Source: Bacteroidales bacterium
GTDB lineage: Bacteria > Bacteroidota > Bacteroidia > Bacteroidales > JAFGXI01
Assembly: GCA_027064025.1 (NCBI GenBank)
Contig: JAMOQL010000242.1
Coordinates: 1-32,962 of the forward strand
Reading direction: 5' to 3'
Length of the DNA stretch: 32,962 nucleotides
Shown here piece after piece: positions 20,667 through 23,548 of this stretch. Position numbers and translations under genes: made by a program. How positions within the stretch are numbered: position 1 is the stretch's first letter; each line of letters starts with the position of its first letter. The notes under the pieces were generated by a model. The model saw nothing but the letters and a program-made list of their open reading frames with translations, did no database searches and was not told where the DNA came from.

Positions 20667-20924
20667 TTATTCTACAATATCTATTACTTGTCCGGCTCCA
20701 ACGGTATGGTGTTCCTTTACTTCATCTCCATCTTTAGTTTTAACATCTTGTTCAAGTTTTATAATAACAGTTACTGTTTCCCCAATATTTATGATTGTAA
20801 CTCCTGGAGGAAATTCCATAAAACCAACAGATTCATCACCACTCTCAAAAACAAAAGTGTAATCTTTGTTGGGGTACATAGCGTCTTTTATCGCTGTCAT
20901 CTTTACTTTAATTACTTTAGCCAT
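20667..20924 (-). CDS. Small standalone protein resembling elongation factor Tu domain III
   Basis: 85 aa; YTFVFESGDESVGFMEFPPGVTIINIGETVTVIIKLEQDVK...HHTVGAGQVIDIVE parallels EF-Tu D3 FYFRTTDVTG..ELPEGVEMVMPGDNV...V.LI...GGRTVGAGQVT.I. No G domain present. Confidence 0.75.
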   Translation of the reverse strand: MAKVIKVKMTAIKDAMYPNKDYTFVFESGDESVGFMEFPPGVTIINIGETVTVIIKLEQDVKTKDGDEVKEHHTVGAGQVIDIVE

Positions 20925-22732: not shown

Positions 22733-22900
22733 CTATTCAGGGCTGATAGCCTCAACTGGACAAACGTCAGCGCAAGCGCCACAGTCAGTACAGATTTCAG
22801 CATCAATTACATAGATATCGCCCTCAGAGATAGCCTCTACTGGACATTCGTCGATACATGATCCACATGCAGTACAATCATCAGAAATTTTGTAAGCCAT
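22733..22900 (-). CDS. 2[4Fe-4S] ferredoxin
   Basis: Translated by hand: MAYKISDDCTACGSCIDECPVEAISEGDIYVIDAEICTDCGACADVCPVEAISPE (55 aa); two CxxCxxCxxxCP motifs. Below the ORF-track size cutoff. Confidence 0.97.
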   Translation of the reverse strand: MAYKISDDCTACGSCIDECPVEAISEGDIYVIDAEICTDCGACADVCPVEAISPE

Positions 22901-23137: not shown

Positions 23138-23548
23138 TTAAAAGCTTTTAAAAACTCTAGCCAAAGATTTACCTGGGGCATCTAACTTAATATCTAAAAA
23201 GTATCCAAATGGTGTTTGAAAGCTTTCGTAATCTGCATTTTTCATTCTTGCATCGACCAAGTCGAACAATTCTTTGGTGAAGTCTGGAGAGGCTTTACTT
23301 TCTGATAAATGAGCAAAAGAATGAAGAATAACCCGCATGGTATCATTTTTTTTAGCAGCCCATTTTAGGTTTTTAACCAATTTCTTTTCAACTTTTTTAA
23401 TATCTTCTTGGTCGTGCTCTTCAGCTTGAATAAAAGCCAAAATTGCATTTTCTATAGTTTCGCCATCCGTAATTGTTTCAAATTCTTCTAAGGTTTTGCT
23501 TCTAGGGTGATAAGAAAAAGAATCGGTATACATCATCAATAATTTCAT
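23138..23548 (-). CDS. Freestanding archaeal-type threonyl-tRNA synthetase editing domain (tRNA-Thr_ED-like) protein
   Basis: 136 aa; MKLLMMYTDSFSYHP..., MRVILHSFAHLSESKASPDFTKELFDLVDARMKNADYESFQTPFGYFLDIKLDAPGKSLARVFKSF parallels the N-terminal editing domain of archaeal ThrRS (YPFAHLSS.LA.P..A...L......L......V..APFGYYK.F.I...GHPLAELSR). Confidence 0.82.
   Translation of the reverse strand: MKLLMMYTDSFSYHPRSKTLEEFETITDGETIENAILAFIQAEEHDQEDIKKVEKKLVKNLKWAAKKNDTMRVILHSFAHLSESKASPDFTKELFDLVDARMKNADYESFQTPFGYFLDIKLDAPGKSLARVFKSF

Follow-up and report, generated by a model that had tools for sequence, protein, structure and literature searches.

A free-standing editing domain of the archaeal threonyl-tRNA synthetase type, with an altered active-site pocket, in a Bacteroidales genome

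The window analysed here, a stretch of 32,962 nucleotides, is a contig (C242; JAMOQL010000242.1) of the 3.0 Mb assembly of a Bacteroidales bacterium (GCA_027064025.1). It contains a minus-strand gene for a 136-amino acid protein, which diverges from uvrB (from 23651, plus strand) across an intergenic region of ca. 100 bp and is followed on the same strand, after ca. 240 bp, by an ORF for a ferredoxin of the 2[4Fe-4S] type. The features at this locus are:

23138..23548, minus strand: solo tRNA-Thr_ED (PF08915) protein of 136 amino acids, complete from ATG to stop, recognized from the ORF, the profile match and the structural model
about 22733..22900, minus strand: small two-cluster ferredoxin ORF, read directly from the sequence
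22709-22679: strong terminator-like hairpin, past the ferredoxin ORF

The G+C content of the editing-domain gene is 33%, that of the window 30%. Contamination, or an archaeal contig in the bin, was considered and rejected, uvrB and other bacterial genes flanking the gene and its closest relatives being found in Bacteroidales. Elsewhere in the window an 85-amino acid ORF with no Pfam match (20667-20924, minus strand) lies upstream of, and is co-oriented with, a histidine-kinase-like gene.

The product of the gene matches PF08915 over positions 1–136 of 137 with 127.4 bits (gathering score 30.2 bits; E = 5.3e-37). Profile searches found no synthetase, anticodon-binding or other domain in it, and no match to PF02580, the DTD family. 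Two NCBIfam models, those for full-length archaeal threonyl-tRNA synthetase (ThrRS) and for the Ser-tRNA(Thr) hydrolase (NF011500), are matched over their first ~130 positions only, at 79 bits (cut-off 484) and 41 bits (cut-off 362), respectively. This is the sole PF08915 locus that a profile search recovered from the 304 contigs of the assembly; a genuine dtd gene is located elsewhere in the same genome (L002).

AlphaFold2, supplied with an alignment of 76 sequences (A2), produced a monomer model with a pLDDT of 94.0 and a pTM of 0.89. Its best Foldseek match is the N-terminal editing domain (NTD) of P. abyssi ThrRS (1y2q; E = 2.7e-15, TM 0.92), and the top 23 matches are all ThrRS editing domains (TM 0.83–0.93), with DTD further off (best E = 2e-7, TM ~0.6). 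A sequence search of solved structures gave the editing domains of P. abyssi (~27% identity), M. jannaschii and A. pernix as the only significant relatives. Since the protein is 54–71% identical over its whole length to dozens of homologs, a chance match is excluded. The predicted structure is a DTD-like fold of the NTD type. The initial annotation had read the gene as an archaeal-type editing domain standing alone, with no synthetase domain, in a bacterial genome; family, fold, architecture and host all bear this out. It had also supposed that freestanding homologs might already be on record, as indeed they are: standalone tRNA-Thr-ED proteins are encoded near SepCysS in archaea, and also in Ignicoccus, and N-terminal fusions to SepRS occur in a few bacteria (PMC5424206, PMC8762117).

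According to Ahmad et al. 2015 (PMC4491819), the archaeal domain uses the 2'-OH of A76 as its catalytic group, with the catalytic water positioned by Lys121; His83 contacts the carbonyl, Tyr120 lines the pocket, and Glu134 grips the α-amino group of the substrate across the dimer. Tyr120 and Glu134 are reported to be completely conserved in archaea, and Met mutants at Lys121 of three archaeal NTDs are severely compromised on Ser-tRNA(Thr); the P. abyssi and A. pernix enzymes withstand removal of Glu134, their Tyr120 and Glu134 side chains being dispensable for Ser/Thr discrimination, but Glu135Ala kills the M. jannaschii enzyme (PMC4491819). Because the spacing to the conserved Gly126 (Gly129 in P. 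abyssi) is the same as in P. abyssi, the pocket aligns without gaps. The equivalent codons in the window, with the residues counted among homologs found by HMM, are:

23309..23311, minus strand: His80, equivalent to P. abyssi His83, in the motif LHSFAHLS; His in all full-length homologs (57 of 57)
23198..23200, minus strand: Phe117, equivalent to Tyr120; 56 Phe, 2 Leu
23195..23197, minus strand: Leu118, equivalent to the water-positioning Lys121; 53 Leu, 3 Met, 1 Tyr, 1 Asn
23156..23158, minus strand: Arg131, equivalent to the cross-subunit Glu134; 57 Arg, 1 Lys

This recount was confined to profile-found sequences (58 alignable, 57 full-length) to avoid the bias of a genome-contig scan which, being seeded with the peptide pattern QTPFGYFL, favours Leu118; the odd row of the recount is a decayed extra copy (L175) in genome G477. 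None of the 58 has lysine at the Lys121 position. The wider set of 98 unique sequences has Phe in 98, Leu in 86 and Met in 12, Arg in 98 and His in 98 at the Tyr120, Lys121, Glu134 and His83 positions, respectively. As the counts hold in the profile-found sequences alone, the pocket change is, at the level of sequence, a stable mark of the bacterial subfamily. SFAHL and FGY, the core motifs, are retained, and Lys62, Trp63, Lys67, Asn68, His76, Ser77 and Lys85 are near-invariant and missing from the P. abyssi NTD. Judged by its residues, the protein would fall outside the functional Ser-tRNA(Thr) editors: of their defining residues His83 is kept, and Lys121, Tyr120 and Glu134 are replaced throughout the subfamily.

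Whole-genome profile searches found 2 carriers among 396 genomes sampled phylum-wide and 32 among 198 from the order of the window's genome. Phylum samples centred on the labels Cloacimonadota, Atribacteria and Thermoanaerobaculales, which may not equal the true taxonomy, had it in 11 of 99, 4 of 50 and 8 of 297 genomes, respectively. At least 522 relatives came out of the genome-contig scan, cultured Sunxiuqinia, Draconibacterium and Maribellus among them, and the nearest homologs in the genome collection (~70% identity) belong to Bacteroidales metagenome genomes. Scans of phages, plasmids and IMG/VR viral contigs gave zero matches, and cargo of a mobile element was rejected on that ground. 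Comparison of patristic distances between the editing-domain and ThrRS trees of 28 genomes yielded a weak correlation, with a Mantel r of 0.19, a value as high being obtained in 167 of 2000 permutations, and some sequences from the Acidobacteriota-like sample nest within Bacteroidota clades (support 0.91–0.95). Together, patchy presence and tree conflict suggest horizontal transfer and loss, with the qualification that a 136-amino acid protein makes a weak tree. Genome G477 has three copies on as many contigs (L006, L174, L175), two of them intact and one decayed (33 bits), and G633 has two copies (L158, L159). Four sequences of the Acidobacteriota-like sample (L164, L165, L167, L168) are divergent, with 28–50% identity and an unusual residue at the Tyr120 or Lys121 position, and still have Arg or Lys at the Glu134 site; they may branch deeply within the bacterial subfamily.

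The ThrRS of the window's genome proved on inspection to be a complete enzyme of the bacterial type, its N2 editing site intact (HSSAH, DLCRGPH), and the HxxxH and CxGPH motifs of N2 are intact in all 30 carriers checked, this genome included. Ser-tRNA(Thr) is therefore already edited in the carriers, and compensation for a broken or editing-less ThrRS, of the ThrRS-ed type, was rejected. Replacement of DTD was likewise discarded, dtd being present in 46 of 50 genomes irrespective of the editing domain. With N2 intact and DTD present the protein therefore substitutes for neither. The window's genome also encodes a 555-amino acid protein (L038:1267-2934) in which an N2-like (ThrRS editing) region is followed by a uridine-kinase-like domain.

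At two of 111 loci (L018:1037-1911 and L102:6001-6908) the editing-domain gene is located directly upstream of dtd (PF02580) on the same strand, with gaps of 2 and 44 nt, respectively; two deacylases of DTD-like fold apparently share one operon there. The pairing may be a single event, since both loci are on adjacent branches of the gene tree, and it speaks for a function in the quality control of aminoacyl-tRNAs. No conserved functional partner was found among 80 loci with flanks of up to 6 kb; the recurrent neighbours, uvrB (15 loci), a RarA-like ATPase cluster (16) and a Sir2-like gene (7), look like housekeeping genes. The archaeal domain has been proposed to recognize its tRNA by U73 (PMC8762117). 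The few relevant tRNAs in the retrieved loci, namely the tRNA-Cys of the window's genome and three tRNA-Thr and two tRNA-Gly of relatives, have this nucleotide.

The reading that we prefer, and hold to be reasonably probable, is that of a free-standing, dimeric, trans-acting aminoacyl-tRNA deacylase of DTD-like fold with altered specificity. The protein would descend from the lineage of archaeal ThrRS editing domains and act in trans on mischarged tRNAs already released. Modelled here as a monomer, it would form a homodimer, and catalysis would be RNA-assisted through the 2'-OH of A76, by extension from the archaeal NTD and DTD. The pocket would serve not L-Ser-tRNA(Thr) but some other mischarged, or α-amino- or side-chain-modified, aminoacyl-tRNA, possibly on tRNAs of the U73 type (Thr, Cys, Gly); candidate substrates would have a blocked α-amino group or an acidic moiety, or an aminoacyl group placed differently in stereochemical terms. 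A different substrate is argued because the residue contacting the α-amino group is charge-reversed and Lys121 is lost, and deacylation is compatible with Met at the latter position because DTD naturally has it there (PMC4491819). Going by these residues, all bacterial copies probably police a different mischarged tRNA. The change of side chains alone is no proof of a new substrate, since the P. abyssi and A. pernix enzymes lose no discrimination when those of Tyr120 and Glu134 are taken away. Animal ATD, in which relocation of an arginine has reset the chirality filter of the DTD-like fold (PMC5802732), offers by analogy a precedent for such a pocket change, not a claim of homology. It has been argued that an unmodified NTD might endanger Gly-tRNA(Gly) in bacteria (PMC8762117), and we speculate that the change of pocket may also be a way round this danger. 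Of the three functions which the initial annotation had offered, an extra deacylase with another substrate is thus the best fit; trans-editing of Ser-tRNA(Thr) and a repurposed fold fare less well.

The stronger rival, which we nonetheless regard as unlikely, is a redundant L-Ser-tRNA(Thr) trans-editor acting as a back-up to the N2 domain of ThrRS, for example upon oxidation of the N2 cysteine. It would agree with the closest solved relatives being Ser-tRNA(Thr) editing domains, with U73 in tRNA-Thr of the host lineage, and with the tolerance of two archaeal enzymes for loss of the Tyr120 and Glu134 side chains. However, such an editor would have to work without Lys121, which no homolog has and whose exchange for Met cripples three archaeal NTDs, and with the opposite charge at the position where Glu135Ala is lethal to the M. 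jannaschii enzyme, in carriers whose N2 is invariably intact (30 of 30).

A repurposed fold, which would bind aminoacyl-tRNA, tRNA 3' ends or a nucleotide in a regulatory or metabolic role without deacylation, we consider more doubtful again. Loss of Lys121 and Glu134 speaks for it. Against it, Met occupies the Lys121 position in DTD too, which is an active deacylase; the catalytic group of the fold is a 2'-OH of the tRNA, and SFAHL, FGY and His83 are all retained. The unconserved neighbourhood and the extra near-invariant residues absent from the P. abyssi NTD (Lys62, Trp63, Lys67, Asn68, His76, Lys85) would suit a new role, but the operon arrangement with dtd at two loci argues for deacylation. 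Partnership with the indirect SepRS/SepCysS cysteine pathway, suggested before for standalone tRNA-Thr-ED of archaea and SepRS fusions of bacteria, is the only published context that we found for standalone homologs (PMC5424206, PMC8762117) and would accord with U73 in the tRNA-Cys of the window's genome, but it is highly improbable and was rejected: none of 40 carriers, the window's genome included, has SepCysS above the curated cut-off (weak partial matches to the profile are likely cysteine desulfurase-like), neither SepCysS nor SepRS was recognized among the flanking clusters examined, and the serine motif kept in the published SepRS-fused domains is not kept here.

The sequences mark the protein as part of a real, conserved bacterial branch within an already known family of editing domains. 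The literature on the DTD-like fold covers DTD, the archaeal NTD and animal ATD. A search of the openly accessible literature found no description of a bacterial subfamily with the changed pocket, which appears to be undescribed and uncharacterised. More tentatively, we propose a fourth functional branch beside these three: a patchy, probably horizontally spread bacterial trans-proofreader, with a charge-inverted pocket (Arg for Glu, Leu or Met for Lys), which would clear mischarged or modified aminoacyl-tRNAs of a class dealt with by none of the known editors. If this is true, a widespread standalone branch with its specificity residues swapped as a set adds a proofreading activity to bacteria and provides a natural experiment in how an RNA-catalysed fold changes substrate. 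The cultured carriers Draconibacterium, Sunxiuqinia and Maribellus make the proposal directly testable. Naming such proteins threonyl-tRNA editing domains from the Pfam match alone probably misstates their substrate.

Among known systems the protein is most like the archaeal ThrRS NTDs (P. abyssi 1y2q, M. jannaschii 4rrf), with which it shares the PF08915 family, length, fold (TM 0.92), His83 and the FAH/FGY core; it differs in standing alone, in being bacterial, in the replacement of Lys121 by Leu or Met, Glu134 by Arg and Tyr120 by Phe, and in having ~27% identity to P. abyssi. Archaeal ThrRS-ed (Sulfolobus, Aeropyrum ThrRS-2; NF011500) is likewise an editing domain without a synthetase domain, but bears an anticodon-binding domain (PMC4491819, PMC11295145), whereas the bacterial protein is devoid of any further domain and its hosts' own ThrRS retains N2. 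The archaeal standalone tRNA-Thr-ED proteins and the bacterial SepRS fusions resemble it as a single standalone domain or in their bacterial occurrence, respectively; the context of the former is inapplicable since no SepCysS scored above the cut-off in any of 40 carriers. Both are tied to SepRS/SepCysS, and the published fusions have a fully conserved serine recognition motif, neither of which is true of the bacterial solo subfamily. With DTD (PF02580) and animal ATD it has the wider fold and trans action in common, and with DTD also a non-polar residue at the Lys121 position. It belongs, however, to another Pfam family, lacks the SQFTL and NxGP (NxGPVT) motifs, has a lower structural similarity to them, and coexists with DTD in the same genomes.
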